Source: Maritalea porphyrae (GTDB lineage Bacteria; Pseudomonadota; Alphaproteobacteria; Rhizobiales; Devosiaceae). Taken from it: a stretch of 64,000 nucleotides of DNA. This document shows, one piece after another, positions 5,596-24,449 of the stretch. The stretch spans positions 622,039-686,038 of the forward strand of contig NZ_BSNI01000002.1 in the NCBI RefSeq assembly GCF_030159895.1, written 5' to 3'. The first letter of the stretch is position 1. Every line of letters starts with the position of its first letter. A program made the position numbers and the translations under genes. The notes under the pieces were generated by a model. It was not told the DNA's origin and searched no databases. It worked only from the letters and a program-made list of their open reading frames with translations.

Positions 5596-5639
5596 AAATT
5601 GGCCGCCACATCGAATATGTGTGCGACCCAATAGATTGT

Positions 5640-6707: not shown

Positions 6708-6714
6708 AAGACCA

Positions 6715-8644: not shown

Positions 8645-8649
8645 TGCGA

Positions 8650-9831: not shown

Positions 9832-9838
9832 TGTGCAC

Positions 9839-10126
9839 CTACCAGCGTTTCGTTTTGCAATTGTGGGTGTGCAAATGATCACCCTTTTTCACGTCGGCAA
9901 TGATTTTGCCAATGTCTTCGCCATACTTAAAAGCGGTGTCGCCTGCCTTGAGGTCTTTCAGCGCGATCTTGTGGCCAATGGGCACAGCCGCGATTGATTC
10001 CAATTCAAATGTCGAATTGTCATGGGTTACGCAGCAAAGCATTTTTGTGTTTGCCTCAAGCCCTTCAACAACAACAACGCCAACATTGTCCTTGTGATCG
10101 TGCACCAGCAATTGGGGAATTGGCAT
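9839..10126 (-). CDS. suyA: (R)-sulfolactate sulfo-lyase small subunit SuyA
   Basis: A 95-residue SAF-domain protein matching the N-terminal domain of altronate dehydratases ([49 protein letters not shown] near the C-terminus). It is the small subunit of sulfolactate sulfo-lyase together with SuyB. The start is the ATG at 10124-10126 with AAGGAAC at good distance; an earlier in-frame ATG would add 11 residues without family similarity. It is the first gene of the leftward operon suyA-suyB-slcC-comC-yeiH and is divergent from the GntR regulator. Confidence 0.88.
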
Positions 10127-10159
10127 AGCCGTTCCTTTCGATTTTGGAAATTGCAGCAA

Positions 10160-10183
10160 CTTGTATATTTAATCTTATATAAG
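10160..10183. promoter_or_regulatory. Candidate GntR operator between suyA and the GntR gene
   Basis: Two similar A/T-rich boxes, CTTGTATATT and CTTATATAAG, sit four bases apart in the 123-base divergent space. The second is a perfect 10-base palindrome (10174-10183). Position and symmetry suggest an operator controlling suyA and the regulator itself. Binding is not shown by sequence alone. Confidence 0.4.
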
Positions 10184-10249
10184 AGTCAATGTAAATCATT
10201 GAGCCCTGATTGCGCTTTGTGCTAAGGCAAACGAAACAGGAGACGTTGA

Positions 10250-10948
10250 GTGCACAAAAAGCTTTATCAAGCGGTGTTTGATGGAATCATTGAACGCATT
10301 GTGGGTGGCGAATATGGACCAGGCACCATGTTGCCCAACGAGTTTGATATCGCGGCCAACTTTGGCGTAAGCCAAGGAACAGCCCGAAAAGCCCTCATTG
10401 AACTTGAAAAAAAGCGCATAGTTGAACGTCGGCAGGGTAAAGGAACTTTCGTTACCTTACGTACGCCCGAAAATTCTTTATTTCATTTCTTTCGTTTGCG
10501 GGACAAGTCAGGCGCGCAAGTCGTGCCGGACTTGTCGTTCGAAGACGTGAAGCGCCGCGCCGCATCGACCAAGGAACGCGAACTGCTTAGTGGGGCACCG
10601 GATCAGGTTTTTGAGGTTCGGCGACTAAGAAGCTTTGACGGCACGCCGCTTGGGTTAGAGACCAGCATTGTCTCATGCGCACTTTTCCCAGGGCTTTTGG
10701 AACGAGCGCCTTTGCCAAATACTCTATATGTCTTGTTCCAGCAGGCCTATGCGTGTGCGATCATATCGGCACAGGATTCGCTGTCCGCGGGATTGGCACG
10801 TGAGGAGGCTGGCATATTGGGTGTAACACCAACGACCCCGGTTCTGGTGGCGCATCGGCAGGCATACGACCTGTTGGAACGGGTTGTTGAAATCCGTCAC
10901 AGTGTGTTTCGGACGGACAAAGTAAATTACTCAGTAGCACTCAATTAG
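10250..10948 (+). CDS. GntR-family (HutC/UTRA type) regulator of the sulfolactate operon
   Basis: A 232-residue transcription factor. The winged helix occupies about residues 5-70 (GEYGPGTMLPNEFDIAANFG, then SQGTARKALIELEKKRIVERRQGKGTFV), followed by a UTRA effector-binding domain (EVRRLRSFDGTPLGLETSIV, LREEAGILGV-like segment, VLVAHRQAYDLLERVVEIRHSVF). The start is a GTG behind AGGAGA. Divergent placement from suyA makes it the likely local regulator, sensing sulfolactate or a related acid. It is followed 16 bases later by a DeoR-family gene, so the two regulators may be co-transcribed. The effector cannot be read from sequence. Confidence 0.88.
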   Translation: MHKKLYQAVFDGIIERIVGGEYGPGTMLPNEFDIAANFGVSQGTARKALIELEKKRIVERRQGKGTFVTLRTPENSLFHFFRLRDKSGAQVVPDLSFEDVKRRAASTKERELLSGAPDQVFEVRRLRSFDGTPLGLETSIVSCALFPGLLERAPLPNTLYVLFQQAYACAIISAQDSLSAGLAREEAGILGVTPTTPVLVAHRQAYDLLERVVEIRHSVFRTDKVNYSVALN

Positions 10949-10964
10949 ATAGGCGGGACAACTC

Positions 10965-11738
10965 ATGAAACAGACGCGAAACGCTAGTGCTCGCCAACTC
11001 TCAATTCTTGGATATCTAAAAGACAATGGTCGTGCCTCTGTGGATGATCTGGCCGAGCTGTTTCAAACTACCCCGCAAACCATACGCAAAGACCTTACGG
11101 CGCTTGAGCAAGATAACCAAATCATCCGCTTTCATGGTGGCGCGTCACTTGTTGCGGGTAGTGAGTATTTGGGTGTCGACACGCGGCGTGAAATTGCACG
11201 TGAAGAGAAAGATAAAATCGGTCGTGCGATTGCCGGCCTGGTGCCCAACAATAGTGTGGTCATCATCAATGCTGGGACAACCACAGCGGCATCGATGCCA
11301 TATTTTTCGAACCATTTGGGCCTGAAGGTTGTCACAGACTCAGTCTACATGGCGAACGGATTGCGTGAACATGTTGGTCTTGAAGTCATGATTCCCGCGG
11401 GCATCGTGCGTTCATCCGATGGTGTCGTACTTGGCGAGAGTGCTGTCGATTTCATTCGCCAATTCAGAGCAGACCTTGCTATCATCGGCTCTGCGGCGAT
11501 CGCAAAAGACGGCGCTTTGCTTGACTATGATCTGCGTGAGGCCGCAGTTACAAAATCAATTATTGATTCTGCCCGCAGCGTAATTTTGGCGGCGGATAGT
11601 AAAAAGTTTGGCCAAAGCGCGCCAATAACTTTCGGGCATATTTCCCAAGTGAATACTTTGGTTACAGATAGCGGCATGAGCAAAGAGCTCAAAGCCCTGT
11701 GTGATGCACACAATGTGCAAGCACAGATCGCAAATTAG
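10965..11738 (+). CDS. DeoR-family transcriptional regulator
   Basis: A 257-residue DeoR-type repressor: N-terminal helix-turn-helix with QLSILGYLKDNGRASVDDLA and TTPQTIRKDLTALEQDNQIIRFHGG (about 10-60), then the sugar-phosphate-binding DeoRC domain (NNSVVIINAGTTTAASM, DLAIIGSAAIAKDGALLDYD, ILAADSKKFGQ). DeoR proteins usually respond to phosphorylated sugars. The regulator of the E. coli sulfoquinovose genes (YihW/CsqR) is of this family, so this gene, lying just before the transporter and the putative sulfoglycolytic operon, is a good candidate for the equivalent controller. The start ATG has AGGCGGGA upstream. Confidence 0.85.
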   Translation: MKQTRNASARQLSILGYLKDNGRASVDDLAELFQTTPQTIRKDLTALEQDNQIIRFHGGASLVAGSEYLGVDTRREIAREEKDKIGRAIAGLVPNNSVVIINAGTTTAASMPYFSNHLGLKVVTDSVYMANGLREHVGLEVMIPAGIVRSSDGVVLGESAVDFIRQFRADLAIIGSAAIAKDGALLDYDLREAAVTKSIIDSARSVILAADSKKFGQSAPITFGHISQVNTLVTDSGMSKELKALCDAHNVQAQIAN

Positions 11739-11759
11739 TTTCGGAAACGAAAATTGCGC

Positions 11760-11819
11760 TTGACTTAAGGCGCGAAATGCTACCAAATCGAAAATAACGA
11801 ACGCATAAACGAACGTTCG
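11760..11819 (+). promoter_or_regulatory. Candidate promoter and DeoR-type operator before the TRAP genes
   Basis: A TTGACT hexamer (11760-11765) could be a -35 element; no strong -10 is obvious about 17 bases on. Downstream lies a direct repeat of AACGAACG (11796-11803 and 11808-11815, 12-base period), the second copy running into the palindrome CGAACGTTCG (11810-11819). Repeated short boxes of this kind fit a DeoR-family operator. The site is in the 124-base gap between the DeoR gene and the TRAP small permease. Confidence 0.4.
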
Positions 11820-11862
11820 AGTGCGAGTCGCGTTGTTGCGTTGAGCCAAAAGGGAGGACACT

Positions 11863-12441
11863 TTGGCTTACATCCTAAGACCGCTTTCAGCGGTCATAAC
11901 GGCTTTGCTGGCTGTGGGCCGCGTGGTTGGTAGCATTGCTGTCGCCATCATGGTCATCGCCATCTTGATTCAAGTGTTTTTTCGTTACGGCTTGAATAAT
12001 GCGTTGCCTTGGCCTGACGAGGCGGCGCGCTTCTGTATGCTTTGGATGACGGGCCTTATGGCGCCGATCGCCTATCGCAATGGCGGTTTTGTTGCCATCG
12101 ATATGCTCCTCTATATGCTGCCGCGCATCGTCGCTGGGTTGCTTAGCCTTGTTCTCTTGTGTCTTTCAATGGTCGTGCTGGTCGTGGCCGTCCGGATCGG
12201 TTGGGGAGAAGTGACAGGATTTGGCGGCAAATTCACGACCGCCTCGCTCTACCTGCCCACATCGATAACTTTCGATAGTTGGTTTCGTTTGCCGCGCTCT
12301 TGGATGATGAGCGCACTTTTTGTCGGTGTTTGTCTTTTAAGTTTGGTGAACCTCGAACTGATCCTGAAGACAATTGTTGCGCTGTTCACAGGCAAGGATC
12401 TGCGCGAAGAACAGCACCCAATTGTTGAAGGGGCGAGTTAA
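11863..12441 (+). CDS. TRAP transporter small permease (DctQ-like)
   Basis: A 192-residue membrane protein with four hydrophobic helices and the DctQ-family features: RYGLNNALPWPDEAARFCMLWMTG, NGGFVAIDML, and a final helix near residue 155-172. It forms the transporter membrane unit with the large permease, whose ATG overlaps its stop. The start is a TTG behind GGGAGGA, which is a strong ribosome site. Order small-large-binding protein forms one operon. Position between the DeoR regulator and the putative sulfoglycolysis genes points to uptake of a sulfonated sugar or sulfonate, but the substrate is inference. Confidence 0.9.
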   Translation: MAYILRPLSAVITALLAVGRVVGSIAVAIMVIAILIQVFFRYGLNNALPWPDEAARFCMLWMTGLMAPIAYRNGGFVAIDMLLYMLPRIVAGLLSLVLLCLSMVVLVVAVRIGWGEVTGFGGKFTTASLYLPTSITFDSWFRLPRSWMMSALFVGVCLLSLVNLELILKTIVALFTGKDLREEQHPIVEGAS

Positions 12442-13730
12442 TGCTTATTTGGTTTCTGCCCGCATTCTTGATTTTGCTGCTTGTTGGGCTGCCGGTATTT
12501 TTTGCACTATTGGCCGCGCCTGGAATTCTGTTGTGGATGTCAGGACAAGAGCGCGACATCACCCTTCTTTACCGCAACGTGTACAATGGCATGGACAGCT
12601 TCCCGCTCATGGCCATTCCCTTCTTCATGCTTGCGGGCGAATTGATGAACCGAGGCGGCATTACCATGCGTCTGGTCGAGTTTTCGCAAGCGATGATGGG
12701 CCACTTGCGCGGAGGTCTTGCCCACGTCAACGTCCTCTCATCAATGTTGTTTGCCGGATTGTCGGGCTCAGCAGTCGCGGATACTTCGGCCCTTGGGTCG
12801 ATGCTCATTCCTGCAATGGAAAAGCAAGGATATAGCCGTAAGTTTGCAGCAGCGATAACAGCAGCAAGTTCCGTTATTGGCCCAATCATTCCACCTTCAG
12901 GAATTATGATTATTTACGCCTATGTGATGGGTGAAAGCGTCGCGGCGCTATTTTTGGCCGGTATTGTTCCCGGCATTCTTGTCGGTGTTGGCCTGATGGT
13001 GATGGTCAAATTTATGGCCGACAAATATGACTTTCCAGTTGCGCGTGAAAAAGCGACCTGGGGTGAACGTGGGCAAGCTAGCCTTAAGGCGTTTTTTCCT
13101 CTTTTGACGCCTGTGATTATACTTGGCGGCATCTTGGCTGGGGTGTTCACGCCAACTGAAGCAGCAGCGGTTGCGGTGGCATATGCGTTGTTTATCGGGT
13201 TTTTTGTGATGCGCACACTCAAAGTGGGTGATGTCCCGGGAATTCTTCAACGTTCCGGCCTAACATCTGCTGTGGTGCTTTTGCTGGTCGGTGCCGCAAT
13301 GGCGTTCAAAACCGTTGTGTCGCTTTCTCACGCCCCAGAACAATTGGCGGCTTTCATCTTAACCCTGTCTGAAAATCCCTTGATCTTGTTGTTCCTGATC
13401 AACCTGCTGTTGTTCATTGTCGGAATGTTCTTAGATGCCGGCCCTGCCATCATCATCTTGGGACCGATTCTTGGGCCAATATTTGTTGATTTGGGCATCG
13501 ACCCAATTCACTTCGCAATCATCATGAGCGTCAACCTAACTGTCGGTTTGGCGACGCCGCCAATGGGGCTCGTGCTATTTGTTGCCTCTGCGGTTGCAAA
13601 AGAGCGCGTCGAAGCAATCGCGAAAGCCATTCTGCCATTTCTTGCTGTGGAGATTGTTGTGATTTTCCTAATCACCTATTTCCCTGCAATTTCAATGACA
13701 ATCCCACGTTTGACTGGGTTTGCTAACTAA
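12441..13730 (+). CDS. TRAP transporter large permease (DctM-like)
   Basis: A 429-residue DctM-family permease with about twelve hydrophobic helices. Typical stretches: DSFPLMAIPFFMLAGELMNRGGITMRLVEF, HVNVLSSMLFAGLSGSAVADTSALG, ITAASSVIGPIIPPSG, GVFTPTEAAAVAVAYAL, FLDAGPAIIILGPILGPI and NLTVGLATPPMGLVLF. It is sodium-coupled in characterised systems and moves the solute delivered by the binding protein. The start overlaps the small permease stop by one base. Confidence 0.95.
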   Translation: MLIWFLPAFLILLLVGLPVFFALLAAPGILLWMSGQERDITLLYRNVYNGMDSFPLMAIPFFMLAGELMNRGGITMRLVEFSQAMMGHLRGGLAHVNVLSSMLFAGLSGSAVADTSALGSMLIPAMEKQGYSRKFAAAITAASSVIGPIIPPSGIMIIYAYVMGESVAALFLAGIVPGILVGVGLMVMVKFMADKYDFPVAREKATWGERGQASLKAFFPLLTPVIILGGILAGVFTPTEAAAVAVAYALFIGFFVMRTLKVGDVPGILQRSGLTSAVVLLLVGAAMAFKTVVSLSHAPEQLAAFILTLSENPLILLFLINLLLFIVGMFLDAGPAIIILGPILGPIFVDLGIDPIHFAIIMSVNLTVGLATPPMGLVLFVASAVAKERVEAIAKAILPFLAVEIVVIFLITYFPAISMTIPRLTGFAN

Positions 13731-13759
13731 AATTTGAGTACCACTCGGGAGGAGAAAAT

Positions 13760-14821
13760 ATGCTCAAGACAACCATCAAAACGCTAACGGTTGCGGCCAT
13801 GTTGGCCACATCAATCGTCAGCAGCGCTGCGGCGGCGGATTACACAATCCGTGCAACAGCAAATTCAAACGAAAATGACGAGGACTATGACGGTCTCGTT
13901 GTTTTCAAAAACTACGTTGAATCAGCAAGTAACGGTGCAATTGAAGTTGAATTGTTCATCGGTACACAGCTTTGCTCCAATGGCGCAGAGTGCCTTCAGG
14001 GTGTAGCTGATGGCTCAATCGATGTGTACATTTCAACATCAGGTGGCGCGTCTGGTATTTTCCCTTACGTCCAAGTGCTAGATCTTCCTTACATGATGGC
14101 CGATGACCGCATTGCGGAGCATGTTTTGTCGGGCAACTTTACCCGCAAAATGCGTCAGATGGCGCTGGAAGACAGCCAAGGCGCAATTCGCCTTATGACC
14201 ATTGGTAACACAGGCGGCTGGCGCAACTTTGCCAACACAAAACGCCGTGTTGAATCACCCTCTGATATGGCTGGTTTGAAAATCCGTACAGTGGTTGCAG
14301 ACTTGCCACAAGAGTTGGTGAAAGCCCTTGGTGCATCACCCACACCAATTCCATGGCCTGAATTGTTCACTTCGTTCCAAACCGGCGTTGTTGAAGGATC
14401 AAAGAACGGCATTACCGACATTATGGGCATGAAGTTCCCTGATGCGGGCCTTCAATATGTAACTCTTGACGGCCATGCCTATATGGGCGCCCTTTGGTGG
14501 ATGTCAGAAGCAAAATTCCAAGCAATGCCTGAGGGCATGCGCGCAGTTGTAGTTGATGGCTTCTATGCTCTGCAACAAGCAACTTTTGCTTCGCCTAAAC
14601 GCAAGTCGATCCAAGCTTACGAAGACTTTGTTGCCGGTGGCGGCGATCTCTATGTGCCAACGCCAGCGCAGAAGTCTGAATTCCGCCAAGCAGCCGCGCC
14701 TGTTTATGATTGGTTCAAAGCCAACGTAAACCGTGGTGATGAAATCTTTGCGGCGCTTGAAAGCGCAGTTGCTGACGCCGAAAGCCAAGTGAACGCCGCG
14801 CGCAATTTGGATATGGAATAG
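13760..14821 (+). CDS. TRAP transporter solute-binding protein (DctP-like)
   Basis: A 353-residue periplasmic binding protein. A signal peptide ends near residue 25 (SSAAAA before DYTIRATANS). DctP-family landmarks follow: GTQLCSNGAECLQGVADGSIDVYI, FPYVQVLDLPYM, GWRNFANTKRRVESPSDMAGLKIRT and GASPTPIPWPELFTSFQTGVVEGSKNG. The arginine in KIRT is the position that usually pairs with a carboxylate; a sulfonate could bind similarly. A GGAGGAG ribosome site precedes the ATG. It closes the TRAP operon and is followed by a stem-loop. Confidence 0.93.
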   Translation: MLKTTIKTLTVAAMLATSIVSSAAAADYTIRATANSNENDEDYDGLVVFKNYVESASNGAIEVELFIGTQLCSNGAECLQGVADGSIDVYISTSGGASGIFPYVQVLDLPYMMADDRIAEHVLSGNFTRKMRQMALEDSQGAIRLMTIGNTGGWRNFANTKRRVESPSDMAGLKIRTVVADLPQELVKALGASPTPIPWPELFTSFQTGVVEGSKNGITDIMGMKFPDAGLQYVTLDGHAYMGALWWMSEAKFQAMPEGMRAVVVDGFYALQQATFASPKRKSIQAYEDFVAGGGDLYVPTPAQKSEFRQAAAPVYDWFKANVNRGDEIFAALESAVADAESQVNAARNLDME

Positions 14822-14845
14822 GCTTCCTCTAATCCTTCCAAACTA

Positions 14846-14872
14846 AGGGCGCCCGGCAATTGCTGGACGCCC
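14846..14872. terminator. Stem-loop between the TRAP operon and the convergent Sel1 gene
   Basis: The sequence GGGCGCCCGGCAA is followed at once by TTGCTGGACGCCC, a 13-pair arm with one mismatch and one G-T pair. It lies 25 bases after the binding-protein stop and 36 bases after (in its own direction) the Sel1 stop. No long T run follows on the plus strand, so it may be an mRNA-end structure or a weak two-way terminator. Confidence 0.45.
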
Positions 14873-14908
14873 TCCTAAAAAAGCGGTGAAGCCAGAAATG
14901 ATGCAGGA

Positions 14909-15379
14909 TCACCGAAATGGATACATCCACTCTTTATAGTCGTTGACGAGAATATGAGACTTTTCAATTTCAGCTTTGGTCATTTTCTTGACGACTTCCT
15001 CGAGCGAAATCGCGGCGTCAGGATCGCCACCAATAGCCGACAAAGTGTACCACATATAGGCGCGAACCAAGTCCCGTTGGGGCATGCCGCGGCCAATTTC
15101 GTAGTACCAACCAATGCCAGACTGCGCGCCCGGATGCCCTTTCATGGCGCTGCGCAAATACCATTCAAACGCGCGTTGATCATCGCGCTCAACGCCAAGA
15201 CCCATGGCATACATAACGCCAATAAGTTCTTCAGCGTCTGCATTTCCCGATTTCGCGGCGGGCAAAAACTCCGCCATCGCGGCGGCGAAATTTCCCTCTT
15301 CCATAAAATCGCGACCCTGTTCAACACCAGCCATCGCGGGCGTGCAAGACAACATCAAAATCAGCGCAAGTTTTTTCAT
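14909..15379 (-). CDS. Small secreted Sel1-repeat protein
   Basis: A 156-residue protein with a cleavable signal peptide (MKKLALILMLSCTPAMAG) and about three Sel1-like repeats: AAMAEFLPAAKSGNADAEELIGVMY, GLGVERDDQRAFEWYLRSAMKGH with PGAQSGIGWYYEIGRG, and RAYMWYTLSAIGGDPDAA. Sel1 proteins usually act as scaffolds. It lies between the TRAP genes and the sulfosugar operon on the opposite strand. Its start codon is only about 15 bases from the first possible start of the divergent peroxidase, so the 5' ends and promoters of the two genes must overlap. Confidence 0.75.
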   Translation of the reverse strand: MKKLALILMLSCTPAMAGVEQGRDFMEEGNFAAAMAEFLPAAKSGNADAEELIGVMYAMGLGVERDDQRAFEWYLRSAMKGHPGAQSGIGWYYEIGRGMPQRDLVRAYMWYTLSAIGGDPDAAISLEEVVKKMTKAEIEKSHILVNDYKEWMYPFR

Positions 15380-15394
15380 TTTCTAGCCTTTCTT

Positions 15395-16687
15395 TTGGCT
15401 CTGAATTCGCCTCTCAATGCTGCAACATTGAAGCCGTTGACGCAACAGGATTTCATCCAATTTGATCAAAAAAAAGCGCAAATCGGACAATTTCTCTTTT
15501 ACGATAAGATATTGTCAGGAAACAAGAATATCTCCTGTGCTGCATGTCATCATCCGAAATTTGGTACAAGTGATGGCCTGTCATTGGGGGTGGGTGAAGG
15601 CGGTCAAGGTTTGGGGCCAAAACGCGTTTCGGCAACAGGCGAAAACCGCATTAAAAAACGTATCCCGCGAAACGCTCCCGCACTTTGGAATTTGGGTGCT
15701 AAGGATATTGACGTTTTGTTTCACGACGGTCGACTATCCGCGTCAGAAACCTATGAAAATGGCTTTGATAGTCCGGCTGAAGAGTGGCTGCCAGATGGCC
15801 TAGAGAGCATTCTGGCGGCGCAAGCAATTTTTCCGCTTGTTGCGCAGTTTGAAATGGCTGGCAATCCGAAGGAAAACGAGATTGCTGGCGCAGTTCATGA
15901 TCGGATTGATGCGGCTTGGCCGATCATCGCGAAGCGGGTGCGTACCATCCCAGAATATGGGGCAATGTTCACGAAGTTTTTCGAGAATGTTTCAAAACCA
16001 GAGGACGTCACAATTGCGCATATCGCAAATGCCTTGGCCGCGTTCATGGCGATTGAATGGCAGAGTGTTGACACACGCTATGACCAATTCCTTCTTGGTG
16101 ACGATAGTGCTTTAACGGCGCAAGAAAAACGTGGGTTAGCCCTTTTTGACGGTAAGGCAAACTGCAGCTCATGCCATTCCGGTGCGCTTTTGTCAGATCA
16201 GAAGTTTCACGCACTGGCGGTCCCTCCCTTTGGGCCAGGGCGTACACGTGGATTTGACCCCATGGTGCGCGATGTTGGGCATATGGGTGAAAGCAATGAT
16301 GTGAACGATGCCTACCGATTTCGGACGCCGATGCTGCGCAATGTCACGCTGACAGCACCTTATGGCCACAATGGCGCCTTTGCCACTTTGGAGGGGATCA
16401 TACGACACCATCTCGATCCCGTTTCCAGTTTTGCTGCTTGGGACAAAGCGCAGACAAATTTGGTGCCGGTGCCTGAAATAGAACATGTCGATTTTGCTAT
16501 TTGGGACAACCCGCGGGAGCTGCAAAAAGTGGCGCAGAAAATTGACATCGAGCCGATCAGTCTGACGGACAGTGAAATAGCTGATTTGCTGGCTTTTCTG
16601 CACAGCCTAACAGGAACGAAAAGCGTAACAGACCCCGTTTTTGGTGTGCCAGAAACTGTGCCCAGTGGCTTGGAGGTGATTAAGTGA
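15395..16687 (+). CDS. Di-heme cytochrome c peroxidase/MauG-family protein, start unclear
   Basis: Two c-type heme sites are present, SCAACHH at about 15533-15553 and NCSSCHS at about 16160-16180, with surrounding di-heme peroxidase features (IGQFLFYDKILSGN, FHDGRLSA, PLVAQFEMAGN, RFRTPMLRNVTLTAPYGHNGAF). Function would be periplasmic peroxide reduction or MauG-like oxidation. The frame upstream encodes a good signal peptide (FFHFLAFLLALNSPLNAA), but no ATG, GTG or TTG lies before it near enough; the only nearby standard codon is TTG at 15395, inside the signal. Extending the frame runs into the 5' end of the antisense Sel1 gene, where ATC (15308) and CTG (15317) are the options. The stop overlaps the next GTG start by four bases, so it is coupled to the kinase and belongs to the sulfosugar operon. 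Confidence 0.8.
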   Translation: MALNSPLNAATLKPLTQQDFIQFDQKKAQIGQFLFYDKILSGNKNISCAACHHPKFGTSDGLSLGVGEGGQGLGPKRVSATGENRIKKRIPRNAPALWNLGAKDIDVLFHDGRLSASETYENGFDSPAEEWLPDGLESILAAQAIFPLVAQFEMAGNPKENEIAGAVHDRIDAAWPIIAKRVRTIPEYGAMFTKFFENVSKPEDVTIAHIANALAAFMAIEWQSVDTRYDQFLLGDDSALTAQEKRGLALFDGKANCSSCHSGALLSDQKFHALAVPPFGPGRTRGFDPMVRDVGHMGESNDVNDAYRFRTPMLRNVTLTAPYGHNGAFATLEGIIRHHLDPVSSFAAWDKAQTNLVPVPEIEHVDFAIWDNPRELQKVAQKIDIEPISLTDSEIADLLAFLHSLTGTKSVTDPVFGVPETVPSGLEVIK

Positions 16688-17568
16688 CCCGCGTACTTTG
16701 TGTTGGATCAGCCGTCGTTGACTTCATCTTCTCTTTTGATGAACTACCAGATCGCGCTGAAAAATTTGTGGCAAAATCGGCCGACATTGTTGGCGGCGGC
16801 ATTGCAGCCAACGCGGCAGTAGCAATATCGCGCTTGGGCGGCGAAGCATATTTGGCGGCGCAATTGGGCGACGATACAACCGGTGAGTTGGTGCGCAAGG
16901 ACTTGAAGGCGGAGGGTGTTGACCTGTCATTGGTCACCCAAACTGAAAATGCACGTTCCTCTTACTCCTCAGTTTACATAAATGATGTGGGTGAACGCCA
17001 GATTGCGAACTATCGAGGTGAAAACCTTCGCTTTGACAGCGCAAAGCTCGAACATGCGCCTAGATTTAATGCTGTTTTGGTCGATACCCGTCTTCCCGCA
17101 GCAGCAATTGCTGCGCTTAAGTTGGCTAGAATTCAAAATGTTCCAGGCATTGTCGACGGTGAGGCGCCAATTGATCAAGCGATTTTGGTCGAAGCCAGCC
17201 ATGTCGCTTTTTCAGAACAAGGCATTCAATCGCTGTACCCTGATGTCTCTCCTGCAGAAGCTGTTCAACTGGCGGCAACTGAATACCAAGTGTGGGCTGC
17301 GGTTACAGACGGGCAAAACGGGGTTTGGTTTTCAGACGCAGGCGTTGTATCGCACGTGCCCGCCTTTTCGGTGGCCGTCGTAGATACGCTCGGGGCAGGA
17401 GATGTTTGGCACGGTGCATTTGCGCTCGCGCTGGCAGAAGGTCAATCCGAAATTGAATCCGTAAGATTTGCAAATGCAGTAGCGGCGCTCAAATGTACGC
17501 GGCCCGGCGGTAGAGCCGGCGCACCGACGCGCGCCGAATTAGATAACTTCTTGAAGGGGAGAGTATGA
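16684..17568 (+). CDS. PfkB-family sugar kinase, probable 6-deoxy-6-sulfofructose kinase
   Basis: A 294-residue ribokinase/PfkB-family kinase. The N-terminal motif GGGIAANAAVAISRLGG (about 36-52) and the C-terminal motif DTLGAGDVWHGAF, with catalytic Asp240, are intact. The GAGDVWHGAF ending resembles YihV, the sulfofructose kinase of E. coli sulfoglycolysis, in which a His follows the Asp region. The GTG start overlaps the peroxidase stop by four bases, and the stop overlaps the aldolase start by four. Directly followed by aldolase, isomerase, mutarotase and aldehyde dehydrogenase genes, the best role is phosphorylation of sulfofructose at C1. A fructose- or tagatose-phosphate kinase role is the main alternative. 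Confidence 0.8.
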   Translation: MTRVLCVGSAVVDFIFSFDELPDRAEKFVAKSADIVGGGIAANAAVAISRLGGEAYLAAQLGDDTTGELVRKDLKAEGVDLSLVTQTENARSSYSSVYINDVGERQIANYRGENLRFDSAKLEHAPRFNAVLVDTRLPAAAIAALKLARIQNVPGIVDGEAPIDQAILVEASHVAFSEQGIQSLYPDVSPAEAVQLAATEYQVWAAVTDGQNGVWFSDAGVVSHVPAFSVAVVDTLGAGDVWHGAFALALAEGQSEIESVRFANAVAALKCTRPGGRAGAPTRAELDNFLKGRV

Positions 17569-18593
17569 TGAACCCAACGCCCGGTAAACTTTGGGGGCTG
17601 CGTAGGATGGCCGACCAAAACGGTATTTTTAAGATGACCGCGGTTGATCAGCGACCTCCAATAAAAGGGCCAATTGCTGCTCAGTTGGGCGTGGAACATG
17701 CCCCTTGGGATCAGGTCGCTGGGTTCAAAGGTTTGCTTGTTGAAACATTACAGGCAAATAGCACCGCAATGTTGCTCGATCCACATTTTGCCATTCCACA
17801 TTCGATTGACAAAGTTGATCCAACCAAAGGTCTCATCGTAACGCTTGAGGACAGCTTGTTCCAAGAGGATGAAGGCGGGCGAACCAGCGCTGATATTGAT
17901 GATTGGTCAGTTGAAAAGATCAAACGCATGGGCGGTGACGCGGTGAAGGTGTTGGCCTGGTACCGACCTGACGCTGCTGAGCGCGTGTGCAAAGCTCAGC
18001 AAGATTATGTGAAGCGCTTAGGGGAACAATGCGCGAAATACGATATTCCGTTTCTGTTTGAATTGTTGGTTTACCCGTTGGCAAGCGATCAACATCAGAC
18101 AAAGGAATATGTCGAGATGAAAGGCAAGAACTCTGACCATGTGTTGCAGTCTGTGGAGGAGTTCGCCAAGCCAGAATATGGCATTGACGTTTTTAAACTT
18201 GAAAGCCCAGTAAATGCTGAAGATGCGGATGGATCTGCAAAAACCCAAGCAATCTTTGACGAAATGGGCAGACTTGCCGGGCGCCCTTGGGTGATGCTCT
18301 CAGCCGGATCGGGAAAGGCTGAGTTCAAGAATATTCTTGAACATGCATTTGCCGCCGGGGCGTCCGGTTTTCTTGCAGGGCGTGCCATTTGGCTCGATGC
18401 ATTTAATGCTTATCCCAATTGGGATCAAATCCGCAAAGAGTTAGAAACGGACGCCGTCGCTTACCTCAAAGATATCGGGTCGCTTGCAGACAGCCAAGCA
18501 AAGAGCTGGCAAACACATAAGTGTTATGGTGCTATGGGTGCGCACTTTGCGCCGGCAGATGCCAGTTTCCGACATCAATATGAAGGCTTTTAG
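17565..18593 (+). CDS. Class I aldolase of LacD type, probable sulfofructose-1-phosphate aldolase
   Basis: A 342-residue Schiff-base aldolase related to tagatose-1,6-bisphosphate aldolase LacD. Recognisable parts are FKMTAVDQRPPIKG, GGDAVKVLAWYRPDA and GIDVFKLESPVN; Lys211 in the last segment corresponds to the imine-forming lysine of LacD. It would split the product of the upstream kinase into dihydroxyacetone phosphate and, if the substrate is sulfofructose-1-phosphate, 3-sulfolactaldehyde. The E. coli enzyme YihT is shorter (about 290 residues); this longer LacD-like form suggests a variant sulfo-EMP route. Start ATG overlaps the kinase stop; the ribosome site GGGGAGAG is inside the kinase gene. 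Confidence 0.8.
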   Translation: MMNPTPGKLWGLRRMADQNGIFKMTAVDQRPPIKGPIAAQLGVEHAPWDQVAGFKGLLVETLQANSTAMLLDPHFAIPHSIDKVDPTKGLIVTLEDSLFQEDEGGRTSADIDDWSVEKIKRMGGDAVKVLAWYRPDAAERVCKAQQDYVKRLGEQCAKYDIPFLFELLVYPLASDQHQTKEYVEMKGKNSDHVLQSVEEFAKPEYGIDVFKLESPVNAEDADGSAKTQAIFDEMGRLAGRPWVMLSAGSGKAEFKNILEHAFAAGASGFLAGRAIWLDAFNAYPNWDQIRKELETDAVAYLKDIGSLADSQAKSWQTHKCYGAMGAHFAPADASFRHQYEGF

Positions 18594-18601
18594 GACGTCA
18601 A

Positions 18602-19984
18602 ATGAACATAGGTATACTTCCGCTCGGGCGGCCAACATTTGACGTGCCATACGCTCAAGAGCAGCTACAACTGATGCTGAATATTCTGGAGCAGACAGGC
18701 GAAGACATATGCGGGCCGCGCACGCTTTTGTTCGATGAGGCGTCAACGCTCGCGGCTATCGACGAATTGAAAAAACAGTCCATTGATCAGCTGCTCATCC
18801 TGCAGGTAACGTTTACTGACGCGTCTATGGCAGTGGCGGCTGCAAATGCGTTTGAACAGCCCATTTCTATCTGGGCAGTACCTGAACCTCGTTCAGGTGG
18901 CAGATTGCGTTTGAACGCCTTTTGCGGACTGAACTTGGCCTCGCACGCACTCAGCCTGAACGGACGCGCATTTTCTTCATTTTACAAGTCACCGTTCGTT
19001 GCCGATTTAGATGATCTGAAAAGCCTTTTTGCTGGAAGAGAACTGGTTCAGCGCAAAGATGCCACCATTGTGCCAGAGAGTACGCCAGCCGGTGAGGCCA
19101 TTGCACAAAAGCTGCATGGTCGACGCATTGGGCGAATTGGGGAGCACCCAGTTGGATTTGACACTTGTGCGTATGAGCCTAAGAAAATCGAAGAACTTGC
19201 GGGCGTTCAAGTTGATGCTCTGCAATTGGAGGATTTGTTCGATCGCGCGAAATCCGCGAGCAACGAAAACGTTGATAAATTGCGCGCAGTTTTGGATAGC
19301 CAAGTGCCAGACGCTGAAAGTGTAGATCAAGCTCAGCTTGATCGTTCGCTACGCCTTAAACTTGGATTAGACCAAATCAGAAGTGAAGGAGGCTATGATG
19401 CGTTCGCTCTAAGATGCTGGCCCGAAGTCTTCACAGAATATGGCGGTGCAATGTGTGGCCCGGCTGGCATGCAAAGCGAAGCAAAAGTGCCGTGCGCATG
19501 CGAGGCGGATGTCTATGGTGCGCTGACGCAAATGGTTTTACAGACAGCATCAAATCAGCCCGTATTTTTGACGGACCTTGTGGACATGGACGCAGAGGAT
19601 AATTCTGGCGTCGTGTGGCATTGCGGGCAAGCACCATTGTCAATGTGTGACGAAACCGTTCAGGCTACAGCAACCGTGCACACCAATCGCAAGCAACCGT
19701 TGCTTTATCAGTTTCCGCTCAAGCCTGGCCCGGTAACCTTGGTGCGCATCAGCCAATCCTATAATCAACCAAAGATGATTTTAGCTTTCGGCGAAATGCT
19801 CAAACGACCGATGGCCTTTACGGGTACATCAGGGGTTGTGCGCTTTGCGCGCCCAGCCGATGTCGTTTTGGCAGACATTTTGGCCAGCGGATTAGAACAT
19901 CATATGGCGCTTACCTATGGTGACCACCGCAACGCCCTGCGGGCGACGGCTGGCGCAATAGGCTTACCACTTTTGGAGATATAG
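18602..19984 (+). CDS. L-fucose isomerase-like protein, probable sulfoquinovose isomerase
   Basis: A 460-residue protein of the L-fucose/L-arabinose isomerase superfamily. The metal-binding residues appear as Glu275 in RCWPEVFTEYG, an Asp in TDLVDMD (325 or 328) and His340 in GVVWHCG; the segment GAMCGPAGMQSEAKVPCACEADVYGA is typical. Such enzymes convert an aldose to a ketose by a metal-assisted ene-diol step. Placed after the kinase and aldolase, it would supply sulfofructose from sulfoquinovose, replacing the unrelated YihS isomerase of E. coli. No other isomerase is encoded in the cluster, which strengthens this reading. It starts eight bases after the aldolase and is followed after one base by the oxidoreductase gene. 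Confidence 0.72.
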   Translation: MNIGILPLGRPTFDVPYAQEQLQLMLNILEQTGEDICGPRTLLFDEASTLAAIDELKKQSIDQLLILQVTFTDASMAVAAANAFEQPISIWAVPEPRSGGRLRLNAFCGLNLASHALSLNGRAFSSFYKSPFVADLDDLKSLFAGRELVQRKDATIVPESTPAGEAIAQKLHGRRIGRIGEHPVGFDTCAYEPKKIEELAGVQVDALQLEDLFDRAKSASNENVDKLRAVLDSQVPDAESVDQAQLDRSLRLKLGLDQIRSEGGYDAFALRCWPEVFTEYGGAMCGPAGMQSEAKVPCACEADVYGALTQMVLQTASNQPVFLTDLVDMDAEDNSGVVWHCGQAPLSMCDETVQATATVHTNRKQPLLYQFPLKPGPVTLVRISQSYNQPKMILAFGEMLKRPMAFTGTSGVVRFARPADVVLADILASGLEHHMALTYGDHRNALRATAGAIGLPLLEI

Positions 19985-19985
19985 A

Positions 19986-21071
19986 ATGACCATTCGGTAC
20001 GGACTGATCGGCTCTGGAATGATGGGCCAAGAGCATATCCGCAATCTTAATTTGCTGGAAGGCTGCCAAGTTGCTGCAATTGCTGATCCAGATGCCGATA
20101 TGCGGGCACTGTCGGTTGAAACCGCACTTGGTGCAGCTAACAGCTACGCCAATTATAAAGATATGTTATCGCAAGAGAAACTGGATGCATTGCTTGTGGT
20201 GTCGCCAAACGACACGCACCACGCAATCATGCTCGATCTCCTTGAGACAGACTTGCCAATTCTGTGCGAAAAGCCACTTTGCACAACTACTTCTGATTGC
20301 AAACAATTGGTGGCTAAAGCCCAGGGCAGAAATGCTCCCGTTTGGGTAACGATGGAATATCGTTATATGCCACCGGTGGCGCGTATGCTGGATGAGGTAA
20401 ATGCCGGCACAGTGGGTAAACCAGTGATGATAGCGATAAAGGAACACCGCTTTCCATTTTTGCCAAAAGTGGGCGATTGGAACCGCTTTAACGCTCGCAC
20501 TGGCGGCACCTTGGTGGAAAAGTGCTGCCACTTTTGGGACTTGATGCGCTTAACCCTGAAAAGCAACCCAGTGCGAGTTTATGCCTCCGGCAATATGGAT
20601 GTGAACTTTTTGGACGAAACATACGGCGATCAGAAGCCAGACATATTGGACAACGCATTTGTAATTGTGGATTTCGAAAATGGTACGCGTGGCATGCTCG
20701 ATTTGTGCATGTTTGCTGAAGGATCATATTGGCAAGAAATTGTGTCGGTGACCGGTCCAAAAGCGCGCATTGATGCGAAGGTTCCCGGTCCTGCACGATT
20801 TAGCGTGGATGGCAAAGAACGCCAATCCGAAGTGGAAATATCACACCGCGAAACCAAGCAGGTTGATGTGATCCCAATCGAGGTTGATCATGAGATTCTG
20901 GGTGCGGGCGACCATCACGGCTCAACATATTTTCAACATCAAAAATTCCGTGATCTTGTGCTTGCAGGCAAAGGGCAACCAGAAGTAACGCTGGAAGACG
21001 GTCTTTGGTCTGTCTTGGTTGGTGAAGCTGCCGAGCAAAGTGCGCGTTCCGGTCAAGCGGTGGAGCTATAG
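19986..21071 (+). CDS. Gfo/Idh/MocA-family protein, candidate NAD+-dependent sulfoquinovosidase
   Basis: A 361-residue NAD(P)-binding protein. The Rossmann turn GLIGSGMMG is at 6-14, the family EKP motif (CEKPLC) at about 94-99, and the catalytic region TLVEKCCHFWD includes Lys179 and His182. In ordinary members the His/Asp pair oxidises a sugar hydroxyl. A related group (glycoside hydrolase family 188) uses bound NAD+ and transient C3 oxidation to hydrolyse sulfoquinovosides and occurs in sulfoglycolytic clusters that lack a classical sulfoquinovosidase. No glycoside hydrolase is otherwise present in this operon, so that role is attractive. A simple sugar dehydrogenase remains possible. Confidence 0.75.
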   Translation: MTIRYGLIGSGMMGQEHIRNLNLLEGCQVAAIADPDADMRALSVETALGAANSYANYKDMLSQEKLDALLVVSPNDTHHAIMLDLLETDLPILCEKPLCTTTSDCKQLVAKAQGRNAPVWVTMEYRYMPPVARMLDEVNAGTVGKPVMIAIKEHRFPFLPKVGDWNRFNARTGGTLVEKCCHFWDLMRLTLKSNPVRVYASGNMDVNFLDETYGDQKPDILDNAFVIVDFENGTRGMLDLCMFAEGSYWQEIVSVTGPKARIDAKVPGPARFSVDGKERQSEVEISHRETKQVDVIPIEVDHEILGAGDHHGSTYFQHQKFRDLVLAGKGQPEVTLEDGLWSVLVGEAAEQSARSGQAVEL

Positions 21072-21077
21072 GGTCAA

Positions 21078-22079
21078 ATGGAAGAGTTTGGTCAGCTACC
21101 AAATGGCGAACCGGTTCACCGTATTTCGATAAGCGGTGGCGGTCTGACGGCGCAATTCCTAACCTACGGCACCGTATTGCAGGATTTGCGACTTGATGGA
21201 CACAACAAGCCGTTGGTCTTGGGCTTTGAAAGCTTTGCGCCATATCTAATGAAATCGCCCTATTTTGGGGCAACAGCCGGACGTTGCGCAAATCGTATCA
21301 GAGACGGGCATTTGGAGATTTCGGGCAATGTTTATCAACTTGATCGTAATTTTCTAGGCAAACACAGCCTGCATGGCGGTGCACTAAGCATGGGTAAGCG
21401 GGTGTGGCAAATTGATGAAGTTGATGACCATAGCGTACAATTTTCCATTCGGCTTGTTGATCGAGAAATGGGCTACCCTGCACAACTTGATGCGACCGCG
21501 CGTTTTTCGCTTTTGGACAACTCAACTTTCGATATCGTTTATCGCGCATCAAGTGATGGGCCAACCTTGTGCAATCTCGCGCACCATTCTTATTTCAATC
21601 TTTCGGGCGAGAACACCATCCTTGATCACGACTTGGCTGTGCATGCAAATACCTATTTGCCCGTTGATCAAGAGCTAATCCCAACTGGCGAAGTAAGACA
21701 AGTTGCCAACACGGTTTTTGATTTTCGACATCCAAAGCGCATCGCCTTGGCTTCAAACTATCACTTGCTAGATCACAATTATTGCGTTGCAAAAAGTCGT
21801 CAACCGTTGCGCGAAGTGGCGCGGCTATCTAGCAAAACATCAAATGTGATGATGAAATGCTTAACCACAGAGCCGGGTTTGCAGGTCTATGATGGGGCAA
21901 AAATCGATATTGATGAGCCGGGGTTGGTCGGTGCGAAAATGAGTGCCCATTCTGGTGTCGCCCTAGAGCCGCAAATCTGGCCAGACGCCAACCACCACGA
22001 ACACTTTCCAAGTGCAATGCTGCAACCAGACGAACAGTATGAACAGCACACGCAATATATCTTCTCAAAGGATCTATGA
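21078..22079 (+). CDS. Aldose 1-epimerase, probable sulfoquinovose mutarotase
   Basis: A 333-residue galactose-mutarotase-fold protein. Typical features are YFGATAGRCANRIRDGHLEI, KHSLHGGALSMGKRVW with the first catalytic His, and CNLAHHSYFNLSG with the second. The general acid/base Glu lies in the C-terminal part (SGVALEPQIWPDANHH). Mutarotases are common in sulfoquinovose operons because glycoside cleavage and isomerisation use different anomers. Start ATG is six bases after the preceding stop; the stop overlaps the dehydrogenase start by four bases. Confidence 0.85.
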   Translation: MEEFGQLPNGEPVHRISISGGGLTAQFLTYGTVLQDLRLDGHNKPLVLGFESFAPYLMKSPYFGATAGRCANRIRDGHLEISGNVYQLDRNFLGKHSLHGGALSMGKRVWQIDEVDDHSVQFSIRLVDREMGYPAQLDATARFSLLDNSTFDIVYRASSDGPTLCNLAHHSYFNLSGENTILDHDLAVHANTYLPVDQELIPTGEVRQVANTVFDFRHPKRIALASNYHLLDHNYCVAKSRQPLREVARLSSKTSNVMMKCLTTEPGLQVYDGAKIDIDEPGLVGAKMSAHSGVALEPQIWPDANHHEHFPSAMLQPDEQYEQHTQYIFSKDL

Positions 22080-23527
22080 TGACCACATTCAAGAAGTTTC
22101 TCGTTGAAGCCAACATGATCGATGGCGCTTGGGTTGGTGCGGACAGTGGCGAAACCATTGAAGTTCGTAACCCTGCAACCGACGAAGTGATTGGGACAGT
22201 GCCAAACTGTGGCGCAGGCGAAACAGGGCGCGCTATAATTGCGGCCAAGAATGCCTTTGCAGACTTCGGGCAAAGCGATTTGTCCCAACGGGTTAAGTTG
22301 CTGCAAGACTTGCATGATGCGTTGCTGGATAATCAGGAACCGCTGGCTCATCTGTTAACTGCCGAGCAGGGTAAGCCCTTGTTTGAGGCGCGCGGTGAAA
22401 TCGCGATTGGTGCCGCCTATATCCGTTGGTATGCCGAAGAAATACGGCGCGCCAAAGGGGAGATCGTACCCGCACCAACAAACGATCGTCGCTTGCTCGT
22501 TACGCATCACCCTGTGGGTGTTGTGGCAGCAATTACCCCGTGGAATTTTCCATCTTCGATGTTAGCGCGCAAACTCGGTCCAGCCCTTGCCGCAGGTTGC
22601 ACCGTGGTGGCAAAGCCAGCCACACTCACCCCATATTCTGCACTGGCCTGGGCAAAACTTGCAGAAGAAGTGGGCTATCCGAAGGGCGTAGTGAACATTT
22701 TGACAGGCAGCTCCCGCGAAATTGGCGCAGCGATTATGCAGAGCCCCGATGTGCGCAAAGTGACCTTCACTGGCTCAACAGAGGTGGGAAAATCCCTCAT
22801 TCGCCAGTCAGCCGATACAGTGAAAAAAGTATCGATGGAGCTTGGCGGCAACGCGCCATTTATCGTTTTTGATGATGCCGACATAGACGCAGCCATTGAA
22901 GGCGCGATGATCGCCAAATATCGCAATATGGGGCAAACCTGTGTTTGCACAAATCGTTTCTATGTCCAAGCAAGTATCCACGACGAGTTTTTGCGGCGAT
23001 TACAGGCCGCAACCGCAGATCTTAATGTTGGGTATGGCTCCACTGAAGGTGTCCAACAGGGGCCTCTGGTGAATATGCCTGCGGTTGAAAAAGTTGAAGA
23101 GCTTATCGACGATGCGGTTTCTAAGGGCGGCAAAATTGAACAGGGTGGCAAGCGTCATCCAAAAGGCGGTACATTTTTTGAACCAACAATAATCAGTGGC
23201 GCCACGAGCGAAATGCGTTTCGCAACCGAAGAAATCTTTGGCCCGTTGTCCGCCATCTTTAAATTCGAAGATGAAGATGAAGCGATTGATGCGGCAAACG
23301 CGACCGAATATGGCCTTGCCGCTTATGCCTTTACTAAAGACATGGCTCGGGCTTTTCGTTTGAACACAAAACTCCAATATGGCCTCATAGGCATCAACTC
23401 GGGCCTTATCACCACAGTTGAGGCGCCGTTTGGTGGCTTAAAGGAAAGTGGCTTAGGTAAAGAGGGCGGCAGTCAGGGCCTAAGCGACTATTTGGACACA
23501 AAATATATGTGCCTAGCGGGACTGTAG
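22076..23527 (+). CDS. Aldehyde dehydrogenase (GabD-like), probable 3-sulfolactaldehyde dehydrogenase
   Basis: A 483-residue aldehyde dehydrogenase. The NAD(P) site is FTGSTEVGK, the general base Glu255 lies in MELGGNAPF and the nucleophile Cys289 in GQTCVCTNRF. Other family marks: TPWNFPSSMLARKLGPALAAG and TEEIFGPLSAIFKF. It is closest in pattern to succinate-semialdehyde dehydrogenases, the same group from which sulfolactaldehyde dehydrogenases are known. As last gene of the operon it would oxidise 3-sulfolactaldehyde to (S)-sulfolactate, the substrate of SlcC encoded in the operon at 5.6-10.1 kb, and so links the two halves of the island. Confidence 0.85.
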   Translation: MMTTFKKFLVEANMIDGAWVGADSGETIEVRNPATDEVIGTVPNCGAGETGRAIIAAKNAFADFGQSDLSQRVKLLQDLHDALLDNQEPLAHLLTAEQGKPLFEARGEIAIGAAYIRWYAEEIRRAKGEIVPAPTNDRRLLVTHHPVGVVAAITPWNFPSSMLARKLGPALAAGCTVVAKPATLTPYSALAWAKLAEEVGYPKGVVNILTGSSREIGAAIMQSPDVRKVTFTGSTEVGKSLIRQSADTVKKVSMELGGNAPFIVFDDADIDAAIEGAMIAKYRNMGQTCVCTNRFYVQASIHDEFLRRLQAATADLNVGYGSTEGVQQGPLVNMPAVEKVEELIDDAVSKGGKIEQGGKRHPKGGTFFEPTIISGATSEMRFATEEIFGPLSAIFKFEDEDEAIDAANATEYGLAAYAFTKDMARAFRLNTKLQYGLIGINSGLITTVEAPFGGLKESGLGKEGGSQGLSDYLDTKYMCLAGL

Positions 23528-23543
23528 GTGCAAGCCGCGTTGT

Positions 23544-24449
23544 TTAGGATTGTGCATGTGCATCGAGCAACGCGGTCAGCCTTTCATGAAACTTGCTGGC
23601 CGCAAACGTCATGTGTCTTTTCTTCTCAATGACAATGTTTAGATATCCGGTACCAACATCGTTTTCGTTCAAAACGGCAGCTTTGTAACCAATTGGGATG
23701 CTGCTTTTTTGATTTGCGGCAGGCAAAATCGTTAGACCAATTAGGGCAATAGACGTGTGCAATAGATATGGCGTTTGGTCGACGCAAGACAAATAAGGCG
23801 TAATTGTCATGCTTTGGCGCTCGCTAGCGCCATCGATTTTTGTCATCAACTCTGTGTGCGCTGGTGGGGTGATCAGGTTCAACCCTTCGAGCTGATGCAG
23901 CCTAACTGTTCTGTCATTGCTTAGTTTGGCGCCATTTGGCGCAAGTAGATATATGTCGACCTGTTTCGAATAGTTGATTTTTATGTGGCGACTGAGTTGT
24001 GGCTGATAGAAAAGCGCAAAGTCGATATCGCCACTAACCAATTGATCCTCAAGTTGGTTTTGCCGGACATATTGCACAGCCAATTCAATTTCAGGAAATT
24101 CTGACTTAAAATCCGCGATCAACTGACACAAAAATTCCGGGCTGATATCTTCGCCCATGCCAATGGTCACCTTGCCCGTGTGAAGCCCCTTAACCCCTTC
24201 AATTTGTGAGGTCATCCGATCATAACTGGCGATCTGTTCCAAGGCGAAGCGGTAAAATAACTCCCCTTCAACCGACAAAGCAACGCCTCGTGATAAGCGG
24301 TCGAACACAGATATCCCCAAATCATACTCAAGCGCTTGGATGTTTCGGTTCAGCGCAGAAGGGGAGATGGCGAGGTTTTCTGCCGCGCCGCGGATCGATC
24401 CAGCCTCAACAATTGCTTTCACATATTTGAACGTTTGCAGGTGTCTCAT
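23544..24449 (-). CDS. LysR-family transcriptional regulator
   Basis: A 301-residue LysR regulator with the winged helix at the N-terminus (FKYVKAIVEAGSIRGAAENLAISPSALNRNIQALEYDLGISVFDRLSRG) and a periplasmic-binding-like effector domain. It ends 17 bases from the convergent aldehyde dehydrogenase gene and is divergent from the urea transporter gene urtA, with 176 bases between the two starts. By the usual LysR arrangement urtA is its likely target, but a link to the sulfosugar operon cannot be excluded. Confidence 0.88.
   Translation of the reverse strand: MRHLQTFKYVKAIVEAGSIRGAAENLAISPSALNRNIQALEYDLGISVFDRLSRGVALSVEGELFYRFALEQIASYDRMTSQIEGVKGLHTGKVTIGMGEDISPEFLCQLIADFKSEFPEIELAVQYVRQNQLEDQLVSGDIDFALFYQPQLSRHIKINYSKQVDIYLLAPNGAKLSNDRTVRLHQLEGLNLITPPAHTELMTKIDGASERQSMTITPYLSCVDQTPYLLHTSIALIGLTILPAANQKSSIPIGYKAAVLNENDVGTGYLNIVIEKKRHMTFAASKFHERLTALLDAHAQS

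Follow-up and report, generated by a model that had tools for sequence, protein, structure and literature searches.

The gene at 19986-21071 (+ strand) of the window, the whole 64,000-nucleotide stretch of Maritalea porphyrae DNA analyzed here, very probably encodes a cytoplasmic, NAD+-dependent sulfoquinovosidase of glycoside hydrolase family 188 (GH188, SqgA type). An earlier note had proposed this identity, and it is supported on each point that can be computed. The open reading frame, its family placement, the identity of its site residues, its predicted fold, and its synteny are direct observations, while the activity, substrate, and chemistry of the 361-residue protein are assigned from characterized homologs. 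Natural sulfoquinovose (SQ) is mainly glycosidic, and free SQ is scarce, so the SqgA step would decide whether a cell can use sulfolipid debris or only the scarce free sugar. As expected for GH188, sqgA sits in an SQ cluster of a GH31-free genome. The GH188 family was published in 2023, together with its role in clusters without GH31, sulfo-EMP clusters included (PMC10755693; this and the other papers named below are cited for the portions of their text that were available), and SqgA adds a member to it, in a type of cluster that was also known.

Family assignment and active site of SqgA

The sqgA open reading frame starts with an ATG one base past the stop codon of the upstream gene (18602-19984) and contains no internal stops. 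The Rossmann strand of its product already starts at residue 3, too early for a signal peptide to precede it, and the protein is therefore presumed to be cytoplasmic. General libraries give SqgA no name, because its Pfam domains are generic Gfo/Idh/MocA domains and all eight matching NCBIfam models stay below their own cut-offs, the top one being inositol 2-dehydrogenase (IolG, 131.7 bits against a cut-off of 355). Both results would suit a sugar or inositol dehydrogenase of the usual Gfo/Idh/MocA kind, lying in the cluster by chance and forming net NADH, a reading to which we give very little weight in view of the matches to solved enzymes. The closest of the 66 PDB chain sequences matched are the sulfoquinovosidases 8zn9 (E 2.7e-116, 53% identity), 8qc3 (2.6e-110, 48%), and 8qc2 (6.7e-109, 49%), spanning 1e-109 to 1e-116, whereas the first match beyond them, 3ezy, has an E value of 1.3e-24. 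A profile built from 8qc2 and 8qc3 scored SqgA at 386 bits versus 16-73 for six paralogs from its own genome, and a profile from 82 relatives without SqgA gave 619 bits versus 29-95. GH188 membership was judged against solved members, as PDB chains and our own profiles. The GH188 structures reported by Kaur et al. 2023 (PMC10755693) comprise 8QC2, 8QC3, 8QC5, 8QC6, and 8QC8. We infer that 8ZN9, whose PDB title is ‘A vast marine sulfonate-based carbon cycle fueled by novel sulfoquinovosidases’, is also a GH188 member.

The predicted structure leads to the same family. An AlphaFold2 model, built from an alignment of the query and 36 of 80 fetched loci, reached a mean pLDDT of 94.7 and a pTM of 0.92, and the monomer has the two-domain Rossmann plus alpha/beta fold of SqgA enzymes. 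In VIA-align, this protein-only model overlays the NAD+/SQ complex 8qc2 with Z 53.5 at 1.2 Å over 360 residues; the sulfoquinovosidases range from Z 51.6 to 53.5, against at most 37.9 for the other entries listed, headed by levoglucosan dehydrogenase, which again speaks against a dehydrogenase. Foldseek rows 1-12 are all chains of the 8qc entries and 8zn9 (8qc2: TM 0.98, 1.2 Å), and the first match outside them is 3ezy, with TM 0.78. The least confident blocks of the model are residues 151-160 and 161-170 (mean pLDDT 79 and 81), and the sulfonate loop lies inside them.

The NAD turn G9-x-G11, the motif E95-K96-P97, K179, and H182, which the earlier note had listed, are all found in the open reading frame. 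Positions were numbered by setting the Arg of the HRFPFL motif as Arg166 of ArSqgA, following the available text of PMC10755693. Under this numbering, 8qc3 and 8qc2 have the expected residue at each of the eight ArSqgA SQ-contact positions, and SqgA is identical at all eight: the sulfonate triad of Arg166, the Leu170 backbone, and Lys172 corresponds to R155, L159, and K161, and the sugar contacts Lys107, Tyr136, Glu189, His193, and His321 correspond to K96, Y125, E178, H182, and H310. The sulfonate pocket that the earlier note had asked about is therefore present as a complete set of contacts, in a confident protein-only model that overlays the SQ complex. One residue did not align as published: Glu163 of PMC10755693 is Val in both chains under the numbering used, and the adjacent Glu164 is conserved, as E153 in SqgA. 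We take this mismatch, without proof, as a numbering difference.

Conservation was counted over 83 GH188-like rows, namely 79 of the 80 fetched loci, three PDB chains, and the query; one locus (L064, 255 residues) was excluded from the site counts and trees. K96, Y125, R155, K161, E178, H182, and H310 are identical in 83/83 rows, and L159 in 82/83. The loci were collected with peptide patterns that include Y125, E178, and H182, so that the conservation of these three is partly selected; R155, L159, K161, and H310 lie outside the patterns. The sole exception to the sulfonate-loop Leu is Shinella granuli (L085), with Lys at position 159.

The residues differ in how well they set SqgA apart from the paralogs of the same genome (n = 7). 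K96, P97, and G9 occur in 7/7, G11 in 6/7, H182 in 5/7, E95 in 4/7, and K179 in 1/7. The sulfonate and C1 residues are absent from the paralogs (K161 and H310, 0/7 each) or nearly so (R155, 1/7), which counts against a dehydrogenase, and Y125 and E178 occur in 2/7 and 3/7. R155, K161, H310, and Y125 are thus sharper markers against paralogs than the residues that had been named before. One of the seven, OWN_L008, is uncertain, because its locus gave no tblastn match and the longest open reading frame there was used; it was kept in the site table and left outside the trees and profiles.

A quick maximum-likelihood tree joins the query to Shimia abyssi, an alphaproteobacterium, and two Tropicimonas rows (five rows, support 97), and this group is nested in a 32-row group (support 98) in which 23 rows have the isomerase gene described below. 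Among the relatives collected, the one nearest to the query is that of Shimia abyssi DSM 100673, at 75% identity. 8ZN9 lies in a separate 19-row group (support 100), whose other 18 rows have no isomerase in the stretches covered. The own-genome paralogs are saturated in this tree, on branches of length 10, and two of the six are placed among the GH188 rows; we treat this as an artefact, and the quick tree does not separate the groups. A FastTree of 357 columns rooted on the paralogs places all 83 GH188-like rows, including the query, on one side of a split that carries no support value. With these caveats for the trees, the PDB search, the profiles, and the structure comparison all place SqgA among the solved GH188 enzymes rather than among dehydrogenases of inositol or sugars. 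The generic dehydrogenase reading was rejected on the PDB search, the sub-cut-off NCBIfam matches, the profiles, the structural Z scores, and the site residues. Separately, six close GH188 relatives from Natronohydrobacter and Rhodobacteraceae MAGs (L030, L036, L038, L044, L049, and L059) form a supported group in which kinase, aldolase, and isomerase genes were not found in the stretches covered.

By correspondence with ArSqgA, bound NAD+ would serve as the catalytic cofactor and be regenerated in each cycle, and the substrates would be sulfoquinovosides, above all sulfoquinovosyl glycerol. If SqgA follows the published GH188 route, C3 would be oxidized to a ketone, the aglycone would be eliminated with loss of the C2 proton, water would be added, and the ketone would be re-reduced. 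K96 and H182 would then lie at the C3 hydroxyl, Y125 at the C2 hydroxyl, E178 at the C4 hydroxyl, and H310 at C1, with the sulfonate held by R155, the L159 backbone, and K161.

The probable sulfoquinovose gene cluster

The cluster spans about 18 kb (5640-23527) and encodes 18 products, for uptake, for steps resembling the sulfo-EMP pathway, and for a branch through sulfolactate sulfolyase. The names given to products below a family cut-off are inferred.

5640-6707, - strand: YeiH/SuyZ-type putative sulfite or sulfate exporter (PF03601; TIGR00698 below cut-off; SuyZ link from the available text of PMC11582611)
6715-7725, - strand: ComC-like dehydrogenase (no other PF02615 gene was found in the genome)
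7706-8644, - strand: 2-hydroxyacid dehydrogenase, probable SlcC-like sulfolactate dehydrogenase (PF02826, PF00389)
8650-9882, - strand: probable SuyB, sulfolactate sulfolyase large subunit, of the altronate/galactarate dehydratase family (PF20629, PF04295)
9839-10159, - strand: probable SuyA, sulfolactate sulfolyase small subunit (name taken from its place next to the SuyB-like gene; weak partial similarity to galactarate dehydratase)
10250-10948, + strand: GntR/UTRA regulator (PF00392, PF07702)
10965-11738, + strand: DeoR-family regulator (PF00455, PF08220)
11863-12441 and 12441-13730, + strand: TRAP membrane subunits DctQ and DctM (PF04290, PF06808)
13760-14821, + strand: TRAP solute-binding protein DctP (PF03480)
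14909-15379, - strand: Sel1-repeat protein (PF08238)
15380-16687, + strand, start codon provisional: MauG-like di-haem peroxidase-family protein (PF03150; TIGR03981, 276 of 340 bits)
16684-17568, + strand: PfkB kinase, probable sulfofructose kinase (PF00294; best PDB match the sulfofructose kinase 7ag6, 3.1e-55)
17565-18593, + strand: DeoC/LacD-family class I aldolase, probable sulfofructose-1-phosphate aldolase (PF01791; NF009498, 328.7 bits, cut-off 184)
18602-19984, + strand: fucose-isomerase-like protein, probable sulfoquinovose isomerase, SqvD/SftI-like and divergent (PF02952 at cut-off; NF048012, 255.7 of 700 bits)
19986-21071, + strand: GH188 SqgA-type sulfoquinovosidase, very probable, 361 residues (PDB sequence and structure matches, site residues)
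21078-22079, + strand: aldose 1-epimerase, probable SQ mutarotase (PF01263; galactose-1-epimerase model below cut-off)
22076-23527, + strand: aldehyde dehydrogenase of the succinate-semialdehyde type (SSADH), probable sulfolactaldehyde dehydrogenase with a SlaB-like role (PF00171; SSADH model, 622 of 646 bits)

The kinase, aldolase, isomerase, sqgA, epimerase, and aldehyde dehydrogenase genes, all on the + strand, overlap or lie at most eight bases apart. The earlier note was right to see no classical glycoside hydrolase in the operon: 17 of the 18 cluster products have a Pfam match, none of this kind, and the 9839-10159 product matched no family in the Pfam scan. A profile search of the host genome for GH31 (PF01055) gave 0 matches, and the same search, as a control, matched 6 of 14 genomes, E. 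coli among them.

The enzyme families would suit a sulfo-EMP pathway, at varying distances from characterized enzymes. The kinase is nearest to sulfofructose kinase, the isomerase and aldolase belong to fitting families and are distant from characterized enzymes, and the dehydrogenase is SSADH-like, with seven of its eight PDB matches at 1e-120 annotated as SSADH and one as aldehyde dehydrogenase. NF048012 (sulfoquinovose isomerase) is the sole NCBIfam match of the isomerase, which has no match among PDB chains at E 0.1 and possibly represents an uncharacterized branch of SQ isomerases. The best PDB match of the aldolase is 8tnf (7.7e-92), with the YihT entries at 6.5e-16 or weaker.

These distances leave a small opening for a GH188 enzyme retuned to another sulfosugar, such as sulfofucosides, with the isomerase and LacD-like aldolase acting on galacto- or tagato-configured intermediates. 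The isomerase is fucose-isomerase-like and reaches 255.7 of the 700 bits set for the SQ isomerase model, the aldolase is closer to tagatose-bisphosphate aldolases than to YihT, and Paracoccus is known to degrade sulfofucose in a SuyAB-coupled manner, by a different route (PMC12421959). Nevertheless, E178, the counterpart of the residue that contacts the C4 hydroxyl of SQ, is kept in 83/83 rows, the top PDB match of the kinase is a sulfofructose kinase, and YihT shares the Pfam family PF01791 of the aldolase. Three Jannaschia loci also carry the same kinase-aldolase-isomerase-sqgA block, and a Jannaschia sulfo-EMP cluster is among the published GH188 examples (PMC10755693; the order of its list is our own reading). 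On this evidence, a sulfofucoside specialist is highly improbable, and a sulfoquinovosidase remains our reading of SqgA.

Free SQ released by SqgA would probably pass through the mutarotase, isomerase, kinase, and aldolase to dihydroxyacetone phosphate (DHAP) and sulfolactaldehyde, and sulfolactaldehyde would be converted via sulfolactate to pyruvate and sulfite. The best NCBIfam match of the ComC-like product (6715-7725) is L-sulfolactate dehydrogenase, at 199 of 500 bits. As annotated, the Suy, Slc, and ComC gene set fits oxidation of sulfolactaldehyde to sulfolactate, which SlcC/ComC would racemize and SuyAB would cleave; the available portions of PMC12421959 and PMC9594981 describe such a scheme. 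From its gene content, the cluster looks able to break sulfoquinovose down completely. SqgA would supply the glycosidase step, and if the proposed steps hold, glycerol, DHAP, pyruvate, and sulfite would all be formed from sulfoquinovosyl glycerol within one cell.

Distribution, borders, and an accessory module

Neighboring genes were counted in the best 80 of at least 577 relatives; the counts are lower bounds, as many stretches are cut by contig ends. The isomerase gene is present in at least 46 of these loci, the aldolase in at least 39, the kinase in at least 38, and all three in at least 34. DctP occurs in at least 46, the 2-hydroxyacid dehydrogenase in at least 34, the epimerase in at least 32, the aldehyde dehydrogenase in at least 22, and SuyA with SuyB in at least 10 of the same best 80. 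In 44 of the 46 isomerase loci, the isomerase gene lies directly upstream of sqgA on the same strand. SqgA has been described in sulfo-EMP and other clusters, with Jannaschia faecimaris among the examples (PMC10755693).

Near the host, the gene is rare. Within the host's family, a search at E 1e-60 found the GH188 gene in the host alone (1 of 136 genomes), with five congeners lacking it; in a sample of the host's order, 36 of 397 genomes have it, the host counted. Nucleotide synteny with two congeners starts at 23574 and 23584 on the right border, and the next 17-18 kb of the same two congeners has no nucleotide match to the window. On the left border, synteny with two other congeners stops at 5596 and 5576, with 0.6-0.8 kb beyond compared. 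The interval between the synteny breaks (about 5597-23573) coincides with the cluster, and no congener has both flanks together. The cluster may have been gained here by transfer or lost elsewhere. The GC level, 0.49-0.52 per 2 kb over 6-24 kb, gives no sign of foreign origin.

The least explained part of the cluster is the module of TRAP, Sel1, and MauG-like genes. The Sel1 and MauG-like genes occur in 32 of the best 80 of at least 577 loci, always together and always with DctP; the isomerase is present in 24 of these 32 and was not found in eight. In Ruegeria arenilitoris (L090), which is among these eight, the genes next to SqgA are of flavin reductase, aldo-keto reductase, and alkanesulfonate-monooxygenase-like type, which we take to be a sulfo-SMO set. 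In the order sample, the Sel1 protein was found in 14 of 397 genomes, 10 of which have SqgA, and the four without it belong to one genus. Leaving out the host, the co-occurrence is 9/13 (hypergeometric 6.5e-8, ignoring kinship). The link to SqgA is looser for the MauG-like protein, at 16 of 23 genomes. A second MauG-like gene in the host genome (G000:C1:153517-154710) is 48% identical to the cluster copy.

It is conceivable, if rather doubtful, that these genes form an undescribed, dedicated module common to sulfo-EMP- and sulfo-SMO-type GH188 loci, in which the haem enzyme might modify a periplasmic partner (for instance the Sel1 protein) or help to oxidize sulfite in the periplasm, as a standing component of how these bacteria use SQ glycosides. 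Among the matches listed by literature searches, none combined sulfoquinovose with a TRAP transporter, and none combined it with MauG, Sel1, or cytochrome c peroxidase; absence from print is not implied by either result.

Comparison with known systems

The 2023 work on GH188 predicted such cases, and what is new here is the member itself, its mapped active site, the cluster borders against congeners, and the unexplained accessory module. The SqgA enzymes of Flavobacterium sp. K172 (8QC2, 8QC8) and Arthrobacter sp. U41 (8QC3, 8QC5, 8QC6) resemble the query at 48-49% identity over the full length, share its eight SQ-contact positions, and superpose on its fold at 1.2-1.4 Å. Compared with these systems, the present cluster has TRAP genes for uptake and includes the sulfolyase genes. 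Its isomerase is fucose-isomerase-like, whereas a review, in the portion available, gives YihS for the sulfo-EMP pathway of Arthrobacter and its kin.

The marine sulfoquinovosidase 8ZN9 is likewise similar to the query (53% identity, Z 51.8). However, its neighbors in the quick tree are Roseobacter and Ruegeria rows lacking the isomerase block, and the query groups with isomerase-bearing rows. More distantly, the GH109 N-acetylgalactosaminidase AmGH109A (6T2B) shares the Gfo/Idh/MocA fold and metal-independent NAD+ glycosidase chemistry, but it is only 15% identical (Z 34.2), acts on a different sugar, and has no sulfonate site. In gene content, the GH188 clusters of Actinobacteria, with fucose isomerase, kinase, aldolase, and SuyAB, have nearly the same catabolic set as the cluster described here, according to the available text of PMC11465081. 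The same source gives these actinobacterial enzymes a Tyr in place of Leu170 and their clusters ABC transporters, whereas the query keeps the Leu, as L159, and its cluster encodes a TRAP transporter.
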